From Halorussus salilacus (lineage in GTDB: Archaea > Halobacteriota > Halobacteria > Halobacteriales > Haladaptataceae), in assembly GCF_024138125.1 (NCBI RefSeq), contig NZ_CP099993.1:2294001-2358000 (forward strand): a DNA stretch of 64,000 nucleotides, in the 5' to 3' direction. The notes beneath the pieces are model-generated. The model was not told where the DNA came from. It did no database searches and saw nothing but the letters and a program-made list of their open reading frames with translations. The position numbers and the translations under genes were made by a program. Within the stretch, counting starts at the first letter, position 1, and each line of letters starts with the position of its first letter. Shown here piece by piece: positions 6,202-48,129 of this stretch.

Positions 6202-7479
6202 TCAGCGCAACACCTCGGCGCGTTCCTTGACGTTTTCGGAGACGGTCACGCCCGTGTGGAGATGCGCGCGCGGGGCGACGAGCGTCCCCGGCGCGAAGCT
6301 CACGTCGCCGTCGGCGCGTACGCGGTCGGCCACCAGCGCGCCGAGCTGCTGGTCCTCGAACACGACGTCCTCGACGCGCACGTCGCCCGGCCCGCCGGGG
6401 ACCGTGGTGTTCGCGCCCAGCGCGACCCCCTGTCCGGTGACGCAGTCGATGAGGGTCGAGTTCGGGCCGACCCTGGCGTCGGTGTCGAGGACCGACCGCT
6501 CGACCACTGCGTTCGCGCCGACCGTGGCGTTGCGGCCCAGCGCGGTGAACGGGCCGACCACGGCCCCGGGCCGGACCTCCGAGTCGGGGCCGACCACGAC
6601 CGGCCCCTGAAGGGTGGCGTCGTCGTGGACGGTCGCCGAGTCGGCGACCCACACCGCGTCGTCGCGCTCGGGTTCGGTGACCCGTCCCTGAAGTAGCAAC
6701 TCTCGGGACACGTCCAGCAGGTCCCACGGGTAGGTCGCGTCGACCCACAGCCCCTCGGTGGTGACGCCCCGGACCGTGGTCTCGTCGGCCGAGGGGTCGT
6801 CGGCCGACGACCCCTCGGCCGACGATTCGTCTCCGGATGCCTCCTCCTCGTCGGCCTCCCGCTGGATGAGTCGGACGAGGGTGTCGGTCAGCGCGAGTTC
6901 GCCCTGGACGCGCGGGGTCTCCTCGACCGCGTCGAAGATGGAGCCGTCGAAGGCGTAGACGCCAGCGTTGAGCAGGCGGTAGTCGTCGGTCTCGGGCTTC
7001 TCGACCAGTTCGACCACGCGGTCGCCCTCGGTCACGACCGCGCCGTAGTGGGAGACGTCGGCCTGCTCGGTCACCGCGAGCATCGCGCTCGCGCCGTCGC
7101 CCTCGAAGGCGTCGAGCACGTCCTCGACCATCCGGCGTTCGATGACTTGGTCGCCGTTGACCACGAGGAAGCCGTCCTCCCCGGCGACGCCCTCGCGGGC
7201 CGCCAGCAGGGCGTGACCGCTCCCGAGTTGCTTCTCCTGGACGACGTAGTTGATGGGGACGTTCCGATACGTCGGCCCGAAGTGGTCCTGCACCCGGTCG
7301 CGCTTGTAGCCGACGACGACGTGGAGGCGCTCGATTCCCGCGCCGATGAGCGCGTCGAAGACGTGTTCGAGGATGGGCCGGTCGGCGGCCGGGAGCATCG
7401 GTTTCGGGCGATTGCGGGTCAGGGGACGGAGCCGAGTGCCCTCGCCCGCGGCCAGCACGACGGCGGCGCGAACTGTCAT
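6202..7479 (-). CDS. GlmU-like sugar-1-phosphate nucleotidylyltransferase/acetyltransferase
   Basis: A 425-residue two-domain enzyme. The N-terminal nucleotidyltransferase carries L-A-A-G-E-G-T-R-L-R-P-L-T and P-K-P-M-L-P, the nucleotide-binding and sugar-phosphate motifs. The C-terminal part (from about residue 260) is a left-handed beta-helix with hexapeptide repeats such as V-G-P-D-S-E and L-G-R-N-A-T. It probably makes UDP-GlcNAc from GlcN-1-P with the GlmS product. The ATG at 7479 (M-T-V-R-A-A-V-V-L-A-A-G) is chosen over upstream codons. Between the domains, a Ser/Asp/Glu-rich insert (about residues 219-235) is encoded by a perfect palindrome. No glmM is in the window. Confidence 0.9.
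   Translation of the reverse strand: MTVRAAVVLAAGEGTRLRPLTRNRPKPMLPAADRPILEHVFDALIGAGIERLHVVVGYKRDRVQDHFGPTYRNVPINYVVQEKQLGSGHALLAAREGVAGEDGFLVVNGDQVIERRMVEDVLDAFEGDGASAMLAVTEQADVSHYGAVVTEGDRVVELVEKPETDDYRLLNAGVYAFDGSIFDAVEETPRVQGELALTDTLVRLIQREADEEEASGDESSAEGSSADDPSADETTVRGVTTEGLWVDATYPWDLLDVSRELLLQGRVTEPERDDAVWVADSATVHDDATLQGPVVVGPDSEVRPGAVVGPFTALGRNATVGANAVVERSVLDTDARVGPNSTLIDCVTGQGVALGANTTVPGGPGDVRVEDVVFEDQQLGALVADRVRADGDVSFAPGTLVAPRAHLHTGVTVSENVKERAEVLR
6782..6825. repeat. 44-nt perfect palindrome inside the GlmU-like coding sequence
   Basis: Bases 6782-6803 are the exact reverse complement of 6804-6825, with no loop. On the coding strand it specifies a Ser-Ala-Asp/Glu linker between the transferase and beta-helix domains and keeps the reading frame. 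A perfect 22-bp arm is far beyond chance even at this GC, and placement in a flexible linker suggests insertion or slippage growth that the protein tolerates. Confidence 0.8.
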
Positions 7480-7548
7480 GGTTCGGTCATCGGTCAGAAC
7501 CGGTATCAACCTTCGGCTTTTTTACGGGATCGTCGTCGATTCGACCCC

Positions 7549-10450: not shown

Positions 10451-11272
10451 TCACACCACCAACAGACCGCCGCCGAGCATCGCGAGCGCGCCGAGGCCGA
10501 CGCAGACGCCCCAGAACGGGACGCGCTCGACGACTCGCATCAGCGCGTCGATGGTGAGGTAGCCGACGACCGCCGCGCTCGCGAGCGCGAGCGCGGCGGC
10601 GTCGAGTCCGACCTCGGGCACGCCCCCGTCGGCGACCGACAGCACGCCCGCGCCGAGCGCGGCCGGAATCGACAGCAGGAACGAGAGCCGGAACGACGAG
10701 GGGCCGTCGTGACCCCGGAAGAGCAGGGCCGAGGCCGTCGTTCCCGACCGCGAGACCCCCGGCAGGATGGCCAGCCCCTGCAGGGAGCCGACCAGCAGGG
10801 CGTCGAGGAGGTCGGGGTCCTCGCGGCCGCCGAACTCGAAATTGTCGGCGACCCGCAGCAGGACGCCCGTCCCGACGAGCAGGAGGCCCACGAGCGCGAC
10901 GAACGCGCCCCCGGTGAGCGCCGAGACCGCGGCTTCGAGCGTGGCGTAGGCCGTGAGGCCGACCACGCCCGAGGCGAGCGTGGCGACCCCGAGGAACGAG
11001 AGGGTCGCGCGCTCGCCCTCGGACGAGAACGCGTCGCGCGGCCGCCACTCGGGGAGCGCTCCCAGCACCTCGCGGAGTTCGGCCCGGTAGTACGCCGCCG
11101 CCGAGACCGCGGTCCCGGCGTGGAGGAACAGCGAGAACCCGACCGCGGCCTCGGGCGTCGACCCCAGCGCGGTCAGGAAGACGGTGATGTTGCCCTCGCT
11201 GGAGATTGGCAACCACTCGAAGACGCCCTGAAGGACGCCAGCGACGAGCGCGACGAGCGCCGACCTGTCCAT
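10451..11272 (-). CDS. uppP: Undecaprenyl-diphosphatase (UppP/BacA family)
   Basis: A 273-residue integral membrane phosphatase with about eight hydrophobic segments. The two family motifs are present: E-W-L-P-I-S-S-E-G-N near residue 20 and P-G-V-S-R-S-G-T-T-A-S-A near the middle. In bacteria the first reads S-S-S-G-H; E and N here are the archaeal variant. It should dephosphorylate polyprenyl (probably dolichyl) diphosphate to recycle the lipid carrier for N-glycosylation. The start at 11272 (M-D-R-S-A-L-V) is chosen because earlier residues are basic and non-hydrophobic. A cis-prenyltransferase that makes such lipids is at 50533. Confidence 0.9.
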   Translation of the reverse strand: MDRSALVALVAGVLQGVFEWLPISSEGNITVFLTALGSTPEAAVGFSLFLHAGTAVSAAAYYRAELREVLGALPEWRPRDAFSSEGERATLSFLGVATLASGVVGLTAYATLEAAVSALTGGAFVALVGLLLVGTGVLLRVADNFEFGGREDPDLLDALLVGSLQGLAILPGVSRSGTTASALLFRGHDGPSSFRLSFLLSIPAALGAGVLSVADGGVPEVGLDAAALALASAAVVGYLTIDALMRVVERVPFWGVCVGLGALAMLGGGLLVV

Positions 11273-11384
11273 GGTCGAGGGGCGACGTGCCGGGGCCAAA
11301 GGTGGTTCGGTTCGGCGTGGGGTCGGCGGGGGGTCGAGAGGGGGACGAGCGCGAGCGCGGGCGAAACGCTGTGAGAGCGTTACA

Positions 11385-11421: not shown

Positions 11422-14400
11422 ATGGCGGAGACGGAGACGGAGACCGAGACCGAGACGGCGGCGGAGACGACCACGGCGGTCCGGTCCGTGCTGGCGGCGT
11501 TCGTCCGCGACCTCCACGGACGACTCGACGACCAGCAGGGCGGGTCGGGAGCCCACGAACTGGAGGTGGTGCTGTCGGACGACACCTACTCGCTCGAAAG
11601 CGTCGAGCTCGGGGCCAAGCCCGAGACCTACACCGAGGACCACCTCATCCGCCCGTTGCTCGAAGCGGTGGGGCTGGCCTCCGAGCGCCAGCCCTACGGC
11701 GAGCGCGGCGGGACGGTCGTCTGGCCCGACTTCGAGGTGACGAACGTCGAGACGACGGTCATCGGCGAGAGCAAGCCGCTGAACGGGGTGGGCGAGGCGG
11801 TCGAGGAGATTCAGGACTACCTCGACCGCAAGTCCATCGGCGCGGAGTACGGCATCGCGACCGACGGCATCGAGTGGCACCTCCGGAAGATAGAACTGGG
11901 CGGGGACTTCACCGAGTACCCCGACATCGAGCACCTGAACCTCCGGGCGACCCTGCTGGCGGTCGCCCGCGAGGAGGGGCTCATCGAGCAGTCGGACCTC
12001 GACGCCGACCCCGAGGAGACGATTCGGTCGTTCGTCTCGGTGTTCGAGCGCGATTCGTTCGCGGAGTTGCTGTCGAAGACCGCGCCGCGGGAGATTCGCG
12101 ACCGGCGCAAGCGCGACGTCGAGACGTTCTACGAGCTGTACATCGAACTGCTGTTCGGAGAGAGCGACGAACACGACTACGAGACGTGCCTGATGGACGA
12201 CATCCGGTTCGTCGGCGACCGCGAGCCGAGCGAGCGCGACAAGCGCCTCTTTGCCATCACGCTGATGAACCGCCTGCTGTTCGTGAAGTTCCTCGAAACG
12301 CGAGGGGTGCTGTCGGAGGGGTTCCTGCGCGAGCGCGTCGAGTACTACGAGCGCCACGGCGAGGGGCTGGCGGGCAACCTCTACGAGACCCAGATTCGGC
12401 CGCTGTTCTCGGACCTGCTGAACACGCCGGAGGGTGCGCGTGAGCCGAAGCACCGCAATCCCGACAGCTGGTTCGCCGACGTGCCGTACCTCAACGGCGG
12501 GCTGTTCCGGGCGAACGTGGCCGACGAGTCGCGCTACCGGGTCATCGACCGCATCCTGCCCGACGTGATTCGGGACCTCATCGAGGGGAGCAAGCTGGAG
12601 CTCGACGGGCGGGGGTTCGACCCCGCGCTACTGGGCAGCGTGTTCGAGAAGACCATCAACCACATCGAGCAGGAGCGCACCCAGAAGGACATCGGGGCCT
12701 ACTACACGCCCAACGACGTGACCGAAATCGTGACCGAGCAGTCGGTCGACCCCAAGATTCGGGACGCGATAGTCGAGACGTTCGCCGAGGGGGTCGCAGG
12801 CGATGGGGTGGACGGAGAGGGCGATGGCAGCGCCGAGGACGCCCGGGCGTACATGGAACAGCTGGACCTCTCGGAACTCCTCCGGAAGATAGAGGACGGC
12901 GACGAGGCGGTGCTGTCGCCGGGCGAGGACCAGACCCGCATCGACTTCGGCGACGAGGAGATTCTGTCGGCGGTCAAGGACACCCTCCGGCAGCTGAAGG
13001 TGCTGGACCCCGCGTGCGGGTCGGGTCACTTCCTGACGACCGCGATGGACGAGATTCACCGCGCGCAGGTGTCGGTGTTGCGCGGGCTGGCCGACGGCGA
13101 GGACCCCGACCCCGAGACGCGGTTCGCCGAGAAGAAGGCGCTGGCGCTCGACGCCATCTACGGCGTGGACGTGGACCGAATCGCCTCGGAGATCGCGAAG
13201 CTGCGGGTGTGGCTCAAGATCGTCGAGGGCAACGGCTGGGAGCCGGAGTTCGGCAAGCTCCCGAACATCGACGTGAACATCACCCACGGGAACTCGCTGG
13301 TGGGGCTCCCGCTCGCGGGGTCGTTCGACGACGCCGACGTGTGGGACAACGACATCGGCGAAATCGAGCAGAAGCGCATCGAGTACAAGCGCGACGACGA
13401 GGGCGACCCCCGCGAGATAGAGCGATTCCTCGACGAGGAGATACGGCCCGCGCTCGACCGGACGTACCTCGACCTGTTCTCGAAGCCGGTCGAGACCGAA
13501 ATCGAGAGCGTCGAGGCCTTCGACGCGGTGGTCGAGTCCATCGAGGCCGACACCCTCTATCCCACCGTCTCGATGGTCCGGGCGAAGCGCGAGGACGGAG
13601 ACGCCTTCGACGACGAGGAGACCGAGCGACTGGAGGAGATGGGCTTTTCGGTGTACACGAAGAGCGCCACGCGCGACGTGGCCGAGTGGGAGCGCACCCT
13701 CAAGACCAAGCAGAACGGCAGGGGCGGGTACGACAAGGACCTGCTGGTCGGAACGCTCCGGGGACTGCTGGAAGACGGCTACGTCTTCTCGGAGGTCCAG
13801 CGCCAGCCCACCCGGTACGACCTCGACCGGATTCAGGGCAAGCCGTTCCACTGGCTCGCGGAGTTCCCCGAGGTCGCCGAGGAACGCGGCAACACCCACT
13901 CGATCAACTTCGATATCGTGCTGGGGAATCCGCCGTACGGGGATTTGTTGTCGGACGAGGAGAAGATGTTCGTCTCGACGTACGAGACGAGCGGGATTCG
14001 GGATATCTCGGCGAACTTCGTGGAACGACAGTTGCAGTTGCTTGAGGAAGGTGGATACTTCGGGAACGTGACGACGCTGAGACTGGTGTATCAGAGTACA
14101 CTCTCGGAGTTACACGATTTGATTCAAACACAATTAGAGACCACTAAAATCGCCTGCTTCGCAAAACGACCAAGCCACATCTTCGACAATGCTCAAGTTC
14201 GAGTCGCAACAATAGTCGGCAAAAAGGCCCAGAATGATGGAGGAATTAAGACAAGCGGATTCATTAGATTTGATAGTGAAGACCGAGGTAAGAAAATCTC
14301 GGACATCTCTTACGGAAGTGTTGACGGACTAATTTTGGGGGATAAAATAGGGATTAGTGATGAAAAGTATGCTATTCTACCGAAAGTCGGTGGTAGCACT

Positions 14401-14973
14401 CCTAGAGGAATCCTTGAAAAGCTAAAGTCCCATTCAGACACGGTGTTCCGGGATGTTCAGTCACGGAAGGAGAAAACAGACTATGAAGTCTGGCGAATGA
14501 GGCATCCTGACAACTGGATAAATCCCATGCTCTCCGAGATGTACGACGCTCAGGACCTTGAGCCGATGTACTTTGAGAACACACTGAAACGTGATAGTGC
14601 CTTCTTAATCATGAGTTCATCCCTCTTTTACTTCTACTGGATGGTCTACGGTAATCAGCGTGATTTGAATTGGGGGCAGGTAGAAGCATTCCCCTATCCC
14701 GACGAGGAAGAATTGGAAGCAAACGCTGATGAAATCCAGAGCCTCGCAGAAGAACTCTGGAATGGAATGGTCGAAGAATTCACCACCGAACCCACGCCGC
14801 ACTACGAAAGCATGAGCCGACTGAAGCCTCTCATCAATTCGGCAGATGAACTCTTTGGTCCGATGTATGGACTAGATAGTGGGGAAATCGAGTTCCTGAA
14901 GAATTATCACGGAGAGTACGGTCGCTCCGGCCCCGAAAACCACCAATTAGACGAACTTGAAGCCGACGACTGA
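11422..14973 (+). CDS. Type IIG-like restriction enzyme/N6-adenine DNA methyltransferase (Eco57I family)
   Basis: An 1183-residue single-chain enzyme. The N-terminal part has a PD-(D/E)xK-type nuclease signature (P-D103-F, then G-E116-S-K118). The middle is an adenine methyltransferase with D529-P-A-C-G-S-G-H-F-L (AdoMet site) and N836-P-P-Y-G-D (catalytic). From about 14100 (residue 890) to the end, the target-recognition part, base use becomes clearly AT-rich, with A/T-ending codons and Lys/Ile/Asn-rich protein, unlike the GC-rich first two thirds. The gene is therefore chimeric, probably by replacement of the recognition domain. The start at 11422 is supported by the TATA box and an E-T repeat at the N-terminus. 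No separate S or R subunit is nearby. Confidence 0.88.
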   Translation: MAETETETETETAAETTTAVRSVLAAFVRDLHGRLDDQQGGSGAHELEVVLSDDTYSLESVELGAKPETYTEDHLIRPLLEAVGLASERQPYGERGGTVVWPDFEVTNVETTVIGESKPLNGVGEAVEEIQDYLDRKSIGAEYGIATDGIEWHLRKIELGGDFTEYPDIEHLNLRATLLAVAREEGLIEQSDLDADPEETIRSFVSVFERDSFAELLSKTAPREIRDRRKRDVETFYELYIELLFGESDEHDYETCLMDDIRFVGDREPSERDKRLFAITLMNRLLFVKFLETRGVLSEGFLRERVEYYERHGEGLAGNLYETQIRPLFSDLLNTPEGAREPKHRNPDSWFADVPYLNGGLFRANVADESRYRVIDRILPDVIRDLIEGSKLELDGRGFDPALLGSVFEKTINHIEQERTQKDIGAYYTPNDVTEIVTEQSVDPKIRDAIVETFAEGVAGDGVDGEGDGSAEDARAYMEQLDLSELLRKIEDGDEAVLSPGEDQTRIDFGDEEILSAVKDTLRQLKVLDPACGSGHFLTTAMDEIHRAQVSVLRGLADGEDPDPETRFAEKKALALDAIYGVDVDRIASEIAKLRVWLKIVEGNGWEPEFGKLPNIDVNITHGNSLVGLPLAGSFDDADVWDNDIGEIEQKRIEYKRDDEGDPREIERFLDEEIRPALDRTYLDLFSKPVETEIESVEAFDAVVESIEADTLYPTVSMVRAKREDGDAFDDEETERLEEMGFSVYTKSATRDVAEWERTLKTKQNGRGGYDKDLLVGTLRGLLEDGYVFSEVQRQPTRYDLDRIQGKPFHWLAEFPEVAEERGNTHSINFDIVLGNPPYGDLLSDEEKMFVSTYETSGIRDISANFVERQLQLLEEGGYFGNVTTLRLVYQSTLSELHDLIQTQLETTKIACFAKRPSHIFDNAQVRVATIVGKKAQNDGGIKTSGFIRFDSEDRGKKISDISYGSVDGLILGDKIGISDEKYAILPKVGGSTPRGILEKLKSHSDTVFRDVQSRKEKTDYEVWRMRHPDNWINPMLSEMYDAQDLEPMYFENTLKRDSAFLIMSSSLFYFYWMVYGNQRDLNWGQVEAFPYPDEEELEANADEIQSLAEELWNGMVEEFTTEPTPHYESMSRLKPLINSADELFGPMYGLDSGEIEFLKNYHGEYGRSGPENHQLDELEADD

Positions 14974-15026
14974 GCGCCCGACCGACTGTTCCACGGAAAC
15001 GCCCGCCCGACCAATCCTCGGGGTGG

Positions 15027-15152
15027 GACTGAAAGGGGCCGCCCGCTCGCGGGCCGAAGGCCCGTGGTCGTCTCAGCGACCCCTATCTCGGCCGGGCGGT
15101 GCGGAGAGGCCGAGATATGTCGCTGAGCGACCGCGAGCGGGCGGGGGCTTTC
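15027..15152 (+). repeat. Structured repeat family 1, copy 1
   Basis: The element begins GACTGAAAGGGG and ends GGGGGCTTTC. Outer stem: 15031-15035 (GAAAG) with 15148-15152 (CTTTC), then a perfect 14-bp stem 15039-15052 with 15131-15144. Inside are a GGCC-GAA-GGCC hairpin, an 8-bp stem (15072-15079 with 15120-15127) and a 10-bp stem (15084-15093 with 15108-15117). The copy at 59275-59398 has the same outline with different paired bases. It could be a non-coding RNA or a non-autonomous mobile element. Together with the next repeat it fills the 429-bp gap after the restriction gene; I see no protein here. Confidence 0.7.
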
Positions 15153-15186
15153 GAAGACGTATTCTTCGATAGCAACTGAGAACTCT

Positions 15187-15367
15187 GATTCGACCAGCGA
15201 GAAGCTAGCTACTCCCGGTACCTAGGAGAACCGCACAGCACCGCGACCGCAAGCCTCGGGCCTCCCCAACCGCCTGCGGTCCTCGGTCGCTCTGCTCCCT
15301 GCGGTCCTCAGCCCTCGCGCGCCTTGGCGCGACCTCAAACAGCAAGGTCGCGCCAGCGCGCGCCGAG
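15187..15367 (-). repeat. Dispersed repeat family 2, copy A
   Basis: Read on the minus strand, this copy starts with a GC-rich hairpin (9-bp arms 15326-15334 and 15346-15354 around a loop ending GTTTGAG on that strand) and ends with a core of about 95 nt (15187-15282) containing CGGTGCTGTGCGGT, CTAGGTACCGGGAGTAGCTAG and CTTCTCGCTGGTCGAA. The core is about 90 percent identical by eye to that of the copy at 49603-49795. There is no open frame conserved between copies. Confidence 0.75.
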
Positions 15368-15402: not shown

Positions 15403-15675
15403 TCAGGCAGTGTCCGAGGGGTCGTCGGGTTCCAATTCGTCGGCGTCGAGTTCTTCGTCCAGATACTCTCGGCCGAGGTCGCTCAGTCGGTAGTACCCGC
15501 CCTCTTCCTTTTCGAGTAGTCCGTATTCGGCCAACTCCAGACAGCGCTGGCCCGCGTAATTTCGGTGGATGTCGATGTTGCGTGCGATAACTGCGGGAGG
15601 GACTTCGCCAGCGTCACGAGTGTACTCCAAGATAGCATCGTCGGCCGGTTTCATCCACTCGGCACGCTGGCGCAT
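15403..15675 (-). CDS. PhiH1 repressor-like winged-helix protein
   Basis: A 90-residue acidic DNA-binding protein. The pattern W-M-K-P-A-D-D-A-I-L-E-Y, then V-I-A-R-N-I-D-I-H-R-N-Y-A-G (recognition helix), Y-G-L-L-E-K-E-E-G-G-Y-Y-R-L (wing) and L-G-R-E-Y-L-D-E-E-L matches the haloarchaeal family related to the repressor of phage phiH1. These single-domain regulators occur in many copies per genome, on chromosomes, plasmids and proviruses. No other phage gene is nearby, so this is probably a stand-alone regulator. Confidence 0.8.
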   Translation of the reverse strand: MRQRAEWMKPADDAILEYTRDAGEVPPAVIARNIDIHRNYAGQRCLELAEYGLLEKEEGGYYRLSDLGREYLDEELDADELEPDDPSDTA

Positions 15676-15890
15676 GGCCGGAAGGGAGAGAAAGAGCAGG
15701 ATAACGTCTCCGGTGCAACACAGTATTGAGACGAACGACTCTGGAAATCCTTGCGTTTGGTAAGATTAAAGTTGGCGCGAAAACCACTCTGATTCACGGA
15801 AGCCTCACCCATGGACCCGGGTCCGACGACGAGAGCCGGTCGGTACCGAGGACGCGGGCCGGGGTGCTTCCGGCAGACGAGAGCACACCC

Positions 15891-27776: not shown

Positions 27777-28487
27777 TCAAGTATCTTCGCCATCACTTAG
27801 CAAATCAGAAATCTGATTCTTCCAGTTTAGAAACCAGGTCTCGAACCGTCTTGGTGGGTCAGTTAGCTTCCACCACCGACGCGTCGTTCCGTAAAGCCCG
27901 CTCACTTTCCCGAAAAGTAAGAAGAACCCAATTATAACCAGATTACTATACGGGTGGAGAGTTATGGAATTGTGGATATCTACGATTCCGAGCGTTAGGT
28001 AGAAAATCGAACCTACGGCGACTAACAAGGTCAGTGTGAACAGGAGGGCATTCGACGCATTCTTTTCGAAGTTGTACCGTATCATCCGACCGTATTCGAG
28101 TGCGATCTCCTCCTCGATTAAATCGTAATCGTACTTCTGATTCAGGATGCTGTCCTCTATCGCCTCTTTTGCGATCCCGATTCTCTCGGAAGTAGACGTA
28201 TATGTCACGGATGAAAGGATTATGGACGTGAATAGCAATACTCCTCCCGTCGTCGTGTACGGCGTGATGAGAACGTCGAGAGAGACATCTTCGGCGCTTA
28301 CGGCTATCGAGAGGCCGGTAACGAGGATACTTGCGACCACGAGATTGATTCGGAATATCTGAATCGCCTTCTCGTCGATATCTGAGAGCGTAGCCGTCTG
28401 CTCGTCGATGGTCTGTCTCGCTTCTTCACGGGCTAGTCGGGCGCGTGCAATCCTCTCTTCGTATTCGTCATCCGGAATATCAACCAT
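27777..28487 (-). CDS. AT-rich four-helix membrane protein of unknown function
   Basis: A 236-residue protein: an N-terminal charged helix (about 5-40), TM pair 1 (about 45-65, 76-96), a cytoplasmic helical segment with E-R-I-G-I-A-K-E-A-I-E-D-S-I-L, TM pair 2 (about 143-167, 182-202) and a basic-aromatic tail. The arrangement resembles 4-TM effectors of nucleotide-signalled defence systems (SLATT/S-4TM type), but no cyclase or sensor lies beside it. The gene is much more AT-rich than its neighbours, suggesting transfer. It is followed by the two tiny paralogous genes, probably in one transcript. Confidence 0.7.
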   Translation of the reverse strand: MVDIPDDEYEERIARARLAREEARQTIDEQTATLSDIDEKAIQIFRINLVVASILVTGLSIAVSAEDVSLDVLITPYTTTGGVLLFTSIILSSVTYTSTSERIGIAKEAIEDSILNQKYDYDLIEEEIALEYGRMIRYNFEKNASNALLFTLTLLVAVGSIFYLTLGIVDIHNSITLHPYSNLVIIGFFLLFGKVSGLYGTTRRWWKLTDPPRRFETWFLNWKNQISDLLSDGEDT

Positions 28488-46896: not shown

Positions 46897-47703
46897 ATGG
46901 ATGAAAGACCGGTTTCGGAATTCATAGAGGAAACGCCAGGAATTGAGATTCACCAAGAGATAGAATCTCTCAAGATTTCACTAGAGATTCAGAAGGGGAA
47001 TTTTGAAGAACTACAGTCTAAACATCAGGAATTCAGAAATTTCGATGCGAACGACTGGGGGAAAACTAATCAAGCAGAACTAATAAAACAGGAATATTTC
47101 CGCCCTTTCCATAATTATGTGGCGAGTATATATACGGTGATTAAACACAGCCAACGTATTGTAGATAATTTTGGAGGAGACGACTTGTATTCAGAATATA
47201 CGAATGAAATAGTGGAGATGGAATTAGATGAGTTAGGTGAATTCCTCCGTCAACTCCGCCATTATACACAGAAGCGTAAGGTTCCTCCTGTCGAAACTGA
47301 AACTACGGTTTCAGAAACAGGACTGGAGTTCCGGTTGTACATCTCAAAAGAGCAAATGTTAGACTGGGATGAATGGAACAGTGACGCAAAATCCTACTTA
47401 GAAAGTATACCTTCTAGGATACTACTTTTAGATGTTATTGAGGAATATCAAAATAGGAGTGAAGAGTTTTATGATTGGTTTTTCAGGTATATTCGGTTCT
47501 ATTTCAAAGATGAATTGGAAGAGACACTAGAAAGAATATTTTTTGTTGAAACTATGAAATCGAGCATGCCTGAACCTAAAATTGAGAAGCAGAGAGAACC
47601 ATTTCTCCATGGTTATAGAGAAAAAGAAGTGATGCAGATGCCCGCGATTCCAATGGAATACATGCATCCATACGATCCAGAAAATATATTGAATGGATTA
47701 TGA
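46897..47703 (+). CDS. AT-rich orphan protein of unknown function
   Basis: A 268-residue protein (M-D-E-R-P-V-S-E-F-I-E-E) encoded in DNA much richer in A/T than anything nearby, with AAA/AAT/TTA codons. It looks helical and soluble: a coiled-coil-like N-terminal part (I-E-S-L-K-I-S-L-E-I-Q-K-G), a middle rich in Tyr/Phe/Glu, and a Pro/Met-rich tail. I see no known motif. It lies between dnaG and the convergent GNAT gene, and ends five bases into the GNAT stop. The composition indicates recent acquisition. An ATTATATGA stretch at 46875-46883 could be a promoter, although it is rather close to the start. Confidence 0.7.
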   Translation: MDERPVSEFIEETPGIEIHQEIESLKISLEIQKGNFEELQSKHQEFRNFDANDWGKTNQAELIKQEYFRPFHNYVASIYTVIKHSQRIVDNFGGDDLYSEYTNEIVEMELDELGEFLRQLRHYTQKRKVPPVETETTVSETGLEFRLYISKEQMLDWDEWNSDAKSYLESIPSRILLLDVIEEYQNRSEEFYDWFFRYIRFYFKDELEETLERIFFVETMKSSMPEPKIEKQREPFLHGYREKEVMQMPAIPMEYMHPYDPENILNGL

Positions 47704-48129
47704 ACCCTCTTCTGTTTCTCGACCCAGCACGATTCCCGCGCTCCCGTCGGCGTAGAACCCCTCCTCGCGGTCGACCTCCTCGAATCCCAGCGACTCGTAG
47801 AGCCGTCTCGCGGCGTCGTTCTCGGGGTGGACCGCGAGCCGGACCCGGGAACACCCCGATTCGCGCAGGCGGTCGAAGGCGGCCCCGAGGAGCCGCCGCG
47901 CCCGGCCCTCGCGCCTGCACTCGGGCGCGACCACCAGCTCGGCGACGTAGCCCGCTTCGCCGTCGTGAAACGCCACGAGGTAGCCGACCGGGTCGTCGCC
48001 GTCGGTGGTCACGAGCACGAGCGGCGGGCCCTCGATAGCGTAGTCGAGCAGGGGAGGATTCGGCTCGCGGAGGTGGGACTGGAGGTCGCGCAGTCGGTCG
48101 CGGTCGTCGGGGCGGGCGTCTCGAATCAC
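47698..48129 (-). CDS. GNAT family N-acetyltransferase
   Basis: A 143-residue acetyltransferase: V-A-E-L-V-V-A-P-E-C-R-R-E-G-R-A-R-R-L-L-G is the acetyl-CoA binding motif A, and L-A-V-H-P-E-N-D-A-A-R-R-L-Y-E-S-L-G-F-E is motif B. It starts at GTG 48129, which overlaps the DUF92 stop (GTGA), so translation is coupled. The substrate may be a protein N-terminus or a small amine; unknown. Confidence 0.87.
   Translation of the reverse strand: MIRDARPDDRDRLRDLQSHLREPNPPLLDYAIEGPPLVLVTTDGDDPVGYLVAFHDGEAGYVAELVVAPECRREGRARRLLGAAFDRLRESGCSRVRLAVHPENDAARRLYESLGFEEVDREEGFYADGSAGIVLGRETEEGS

Follow-up and report, generated by a model that had tools for sequence, protein, structure and literature searches.

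The window analysed here is a 64,000-nucleotide stretch of the Halorussus salilacus genome, and all positions below refer to it unless another locus is named. It holds an open frame for a Type IIG-like restriction-modification enzyme, flanked by uppP on one side and a small gene on the other. In what follows G000 denotes the query genome, G013 a congener, and G002 a member of another genus in the same family. The features at the locus are as follows.

10451 to 11299, minus strand: uppP (BacA family), the conserved upstream neighbour (Pfam BacA; neighbourhood comparisons)
11422 to 14973, plus strand: whole gene of the Type IIG-like restriction-modification enzyme, 1183 residues (open frame; Pfam Eco57I and MmeI_Mtase; PADLOC)
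11422 to 14022, plus strand: putative resident, host-like core with nuclease, spacer and most of the methylase (GC3; DNA identity to G013)
11725 to 11775, plus strand: PD-(D/E)xK nuclease motif, P102 D103 ... E116 S K118 (conserved columns, 31 aligned sequences)
13006 to 13026, plus strand: methylase motif I, DPACGSG, residues 529-535 (invariant or near-invariant columns, 31 sequences)
13927 to 13938, plus strand: methylase motif IV, NPPY, residues 836-839 (invariant columns, 31 sequences)
14006 to 14097, plus strand: junction, codons 862-892, with mosaic and compositional break (89/93 nt identical to G002)
14023 to 14883, plus strand: putative imported segment with the end of the methylase fold, the recognition domain and most of the C-terminal helices (composition, lost G013 similarity, tree conflict)
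14284 to 14706, plus strand: predicted recognition domain proper, approximately residues 955-1095 (secondary structure and fold matches of the predicted model)
14884 to 14973, plus strand: gene tail, again G013-like (DNA comparison)
15403 to 15675, minus strand: small gene of 90 residues, weakly like the N-terminal HVO_A0261 (winged-helix type) domain (Pfam, below cut-off)

The Eco57I and MmeI_Mtase methylase domains both scored above their Pfam cut-offs in the 1183-residue product, and a Type IIG enzyme was its top PADLOC match. Nuclease and methylase motifs lie on one polypeptide, as expected of Type IIG; K118 of the nuclease motif is replaced by Arg in three aligned rows. A predicted structure built with 29 sequences (mean pLDDT 83.8, pTM 0.84) was matched by Foldseek to BrxX, MmeI, DrdV and BpuSI chains; in a second comparison, residues 231-1162 aligned to MmeI (PDB 5hr4; Z 20.5, rmsd 4.6, 579 aligned) and residues ~427-1100 to M.TaqI (Z 19-20). 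From the predicted model and its matches to MmeI, DrdV, BpuSI and M.TaqI, the domains run in the order known from Type IIG/IIL enzymes, starting with the nuclease and passing through a helical spacer, the N6-adenine methylase and the recognition domain to the C-terminal helices. MmeI itself (Type IIL) is described as carrying these same elements in one chain (PMC4833311), although its sequence identity to the query enzyme is low (~12-17%). As a Type IIG enzyme, it would methylate adenine in its target and cut the DNA beside it. A BREX PglX/BrxX methylase was rejected, the top BREX model scoring 69.4 bits vs a cut-off of 500. No restriction-modification family match was found near the gene among the neighbouring frames scanned with Pfam, a subset that included some on the wrong strand. 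The family searches run left the recognition domain itself unnamed, which does not indicate a new fold.

A drop in GC within the 3' part of this frame, as a sequence-only reading had proposed, is real by frame check, GC and GC3 changepoint. GC3 is 0.93 before and 0.52 after the best changepoint at codon 868 (within 2 lnL: codons 856-874, window 13987-14041). A mechanical selection from the window and 20 further stretches of this genome (464 kb) gave 180 ORFs of 300 codons or more; the shift found here is the largest within a gene among them (|z| 16.5; next 12.1, median 1.7), and GC as low is seen in just 0.4% of 600-bp windows of that sample. The core is host-like, with its GC3 of 0.93 vs an ORF median of 0.92. 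The same reading had described the end of the enzyme as AT-rich and rich in Lys, Asn and Ile; it is AT-rich, but these residues rise only mildly, from 12.3% in the core to 15.3% in the module, i.e. the part behind the break. It had also put the switch at ~14100, which is ~75 bp too far downstream for composition but fits the end of DNA similarity to relatives (14097-14117). The second-strongest within-gene switch of the 180 ORFs, L142:2034-3695 (G000:C1 ~1402034-1403695; GC3 0.42 to 0.91), is another candidate chimeric gene. Elsewhere in the window, a frame of 236 residues without a Pfam match (27777-28487, minus strand) lies in a local GC dip (~0.49) and is perhaps another imported gene, and a further local dip at 47001-48000 reaches 0.475 in a region of 67% GC.

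The enzyme gene of both G013 and G002 sits between the same neighbours as in the query, with a nucleotidyltransferase gene (window 6202-7509) and uppP on one side, and the small gene 15403-15675 and a frame at 15726 on the other. In G013 uppP is intact and lies ~3.3 kb from the enzyme gene; G002 keeps only a C-terminal remnant of it (residues 237-275). The small gene follows the enzyme gene in G000, G013 and G002 and is possibly a regulator travelling with the locus. Its counterparts in G013, G002 and G022 share 80-81% identity with it, and in G013 and G002 one or two weaker paralogues (31-41%) are found next to it; the G022 counterpart is close to uppP, with no enzyme gene in the 15 kb examined. 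In G011 the enzyme is missing from this arrangement, and uppP directly adjoins the gene at window 16540. A survey of uppP neighbourhoods in 17 genus-mates, with G013 examined apart and G012, G023 and G025 left out, found no enzyme gene in the remaining 13 at the DNA level, at which a very divergent copy would be missed. Two GC-rich inverted repeats lie 3' of the gene (window 15031-15152 and 15317-15363). The sequence at 15008-15157 has further matches, one in G013 and two within a single 15-kb stretch of G021, and so resembles a palindromic repeat dispersed between genes.

The three orthologues share a core but carry recognition modules of different descent. In the core tree, query, G013 and G002 form one clade (100%), with query and G013 together at 99%. 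The module tree places G013 with G326, G153, G304 and G347 (98/95), and G002 with G261 and Halorientalis persicus (97/96), leaving the query without a supported partner. AU tests, given groups taken from the core tree, reject a single clade of all three modules (p 2.4e-45) as well as the pairing of query with G013 (p 6.5e-50). Query and G013 are 0.83 identical in the core vs 0.42 in the module, by far the largest gap in 406 pairs, and the G013 module is 64-65% identical to that of G326, from another family, vs 42% to the query. Homologues with a shared N-terminal and a different C-terminal part, the comparison that the earlier reading had suggested, are thus found in G013 and G002. The trees comprise 21 rows (L024 and L089 left out) and the pairwise comparison 29 rows (L024, L089 and L128 left out). 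Broken or partial copies (L087, L088, L096, L027 and L028) were excluded from all alignments; L023 is the same gene as L101, L124 was omitted as a near-copy of L153, and L132 is present only in alignments A1 and A2. The set also excludes later matches (G466 and G488) and the matches to the core alone in G325, G065 and G257.

The joint between the two parts is itself shared with another genus. Query and G002 agree at 68/90 nt just upstream of codons 862-892, at 89/93 within them and at 50/93 just downstream, a junction of ~90 bp with 96% identity and an exact run of 38 bp at 14011-14048. At informative sites the query is G013-like up to 14010 (106/133) and G002-like from 14041 (16/18; permutation p 5e-5), and this mosaic break (14010-14041) coincides with the compositional break (13987-14041). 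When 13981-14140 was searched against 391 class genomes, similarity ended at 14078-14097 in nine of ten non-self rows and at 14118 in one. Amino-acid breakpoints at residues 889-902 were obtained for G013 (with two partner choices), G002 (partners G013 and G261), G217 and G205. Other combinations gave a less clear picture, with the break at 892-893 (G002 with query and G261, p 0.06), near 1005 (G002 with G013 and Halorientalis), near 840 (Halorientalis) and near 775 (G217 with Halorientalis and Halorubrum persicum); for Natrinema limicola, weakly supported breaks (p 0.04-0.05) fell near 390-450. Query and G002 have the junction in common but differ in the module, which means that at least one further event took place in one of the two lineages.

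DNA identity to G013 is 82% over 11460-14117, absent over 14118-14883, 73% over 14884-14971 and 84% over 15008-15168. The renewed similarity of the gene tail suggests a 3' crossover near 14884-14973, with the 3' limit of the imported segment uncertain within ~14870-15008. At the other end, the predicted model has strands at 905-913, 928-935 and 941-948 between the joint and the next domain, and a profile match to M.BseCI extends past the joint (profile positions 784-913). In our reading these strands close the methylase fold and the recognition domain proper starts from ~955, so that the replaced stretch begins inside the methylase fold, probably 60-90 residues before that domain. In family-wide distances, windows 890-929 and 920-959 track the module (r 0.87 and 0.85) above the core (0.76 and 0.72). 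Since these windows follow the module and the strands lie after the joint, the moving unit appears longer than the recognition domain. The switch does follow NPPY, by ~30-55 residues past 836-839, but by the model it falls inside the methylase fold and not at the start of the recognition domain as had been thought. By the same token, the view that only the specificity part was replaced holds for the nuclease and most of the methylase, which were kept, but not for the last part of the methylase fold, which was exchanged with the module.

A different explanation of the composition is that the AT-rich end is intrinsic, the DNA-binding residues of the module making the 3' end always AT-rich. GC3 also falls from core to module in other members: the next-lowest changes after the query (-0.425) are those of the same-neighbourhood orthologues G002 (-0.275) and G013 (-0.192), followed by G153 (-0.184), and Halorientalis persicus shows -0.126. 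The 31 other family rows nevertheless average -0.025 (SD 0.08), and several GC-rich members are flat (G149 +0.005, G365 0.000). AT-rich ends throughout the family had been named as the observation that would undo the transfer reading, and they were looked for and not found; across the 32 family rows, intrinsic composition is rejected at the family level. The tree conflict does not depend on composition and also counts against an intrinsic end, leaving this explanation with a near-negligible probability.

Two further scenarios are each very improbable. In one, no transfer took place and the module diverged in place, very fast and under virus pressure, which would have lowered its identity to G013 and let its composition drift. 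Modules are less conserved than cores across the enzyme family, and no donor was found among the searched genomes, both of which would fit. Rapid divergence, however, does not account for a G013 module nearest to other families and a G002 module nearest to yet others, nor for a junction 96% identical across genera and a mosaic break. In the other, a low-GC gene came in complete and a GC-rich core then took the place of its front part; many family members (e.g. G022, G353 and Natrinema limicola) do have low GC along the entire gene. Against such a reversal, the core is the part common to same-neighbourhood orthologues in two other species, its GC3 is that of the host, and likeness to G013 returns in the tail and past the stop.

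We therefore return to replacement by transfer, which the conflict of core and module trees supports together with breaks in composition, DNA similarity and mosaic pattern at one place: very probably, the core is resident and the 3' part was swapped by homologous recombination with an incoming related gene. The single-chain enzyme would methylate its target on host DNA and cut unmethylated foreign DNA, with one C-terminal module setting the target for both activities. The nuclease and the larger part of the methylase would represent a long-resident, host-like version, in a neighbourhood that two related species also have. Incoming DNA with a related enzyme gene would have replaced the 3' part, through an upstream crossover in the conserved methylase stretch (codons ~856-892) and a downstream crossover that probably fell in the final 30 codons or shortly beyond them. 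The imported piece would comprise the last methylase strands, the recognition domain and the C-terminal helices of a lower-GC haloarchaeal relative, and would have yet to drift to host composition. We infer that the query was the recipient, a case that rests on composition and the junction mosaic. As both activities share one recognition module, the swap should change both together without self-harm, and a changed DNA target is expected. The MmeI account likewise states that enzymes with one recognition domain for two activities can alter both together (PMC4833311).

Homologues of the module occur in 22 of the 391 class genomes (best non-self 50%), 18 of 170 genomes in the family of G217 (best 49%), 4 of 146 in that of G326, 1 of 125 in that of G122 and 2 of 9 in that of G153. 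Eleven plasmid records match, including two haloarchaeal plasmids, of Haloarcula halophila (45%, the best) and Halorubrum sp. BOL3-1 (39%), with plasmid matches outside haloarchaea at 21-23%. A phage search returned three records, all Halorubrum tailed viruses (41-42% identity), and in viral contigs the module query had no match and the full protein one. No close donor was found in the class sample, four families, plasmids, phages or viral contigs, ~50% being the best identity. This result and the unsupported position of the query in the module tree count against the transfer reading. Nor was there a second, silent copy in the query genome, where a DNA search gave the gene itself and 15 matches of at most 28 bases, and a protein search with the module only itself. 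The module is best called haloarchaeal and of lower GC, and its description as compositionally foreign would apply to the lineage but not to haloarchaea, from which its relatives come. The viral records, HRTV-24 (L123), Hardycor2 (L124) and HRTV-26 (L153), carry full-length enzyme homologues, 46-47% identical, between ribonucleotide reductase and a tRNA-Thr/integrase region. Unlike the query enzyme these are virus-borne members of the host's own restriction enzyme family, and their modules at 41-42% identity are therefore not direct donors; a vehicle of some kind is part of the proposed transfer. G403 has three copies of the enzyme family (L086, L087 and L088), one of which is open over 1127 residues, with stops or frameshifts interrupting the other two.

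The mechanism is already known in bacteria and is seen here in an archaeal single-chain enzyme. In Helicobacter pylori, recognition domains are reported to move between Type III methylase genes, at weakly similar DNA that codes for conserved methylase motifs, and to cross species boundaries (PMC3983042). The likeness lies in a recognition part swapped by recombination at such DNA; those are bacterial modification genes, whereas the present case is a haloarchaeal nuclease-methylase in one chain with a compositional scar. Domain movement is also described for Type I and two-subunit Type IIG specificity genes of H. pylori, where recognition domains are likewise exchanged while the catalytic part stays (PMC3077401). 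As described there, those systems have a separate specificity subunit, two recognition domains and flanking repeats, in contrast to one fused polypeptide with no flanking repeats seen. Haloarchaeal restriction-modification genes are reported as patchy and often transferred (PMC6471742), and H. volcanii as carrying Type IIG gene fragments (PMC4389544, PMC5867850). In the parts of the open-licence PMC literature available to us, no description was found of module exchange in haloarchaeal single-chain Type IIG enzymes.

More tentatively, the neighbourhood may be a standing specificity slot, in which independent replacements would have given a resident core new recognition cassettes in two or more, probably three, related species, by way of a short conserved DNA anchor in the methylase motif region. 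Cassettes would then come from a pool common to haloarchaeal chromosomes, plasmids and tailed viruses, and viruses would carry, and might deliver, the parts that re-aim host restriction; we regard this wider picture as possible but less likely than not. With three orthologues, one core and three cassettes of different descent, the locus offers a clean natural experiment in how single-chain archaeal enzymes switch specificity, and its natural joint at codons ~862-892 points to a site at which functional chimeras may be made. It also suggests a way in which haloarchaea could change their restriction with no need to acquire a complete system.
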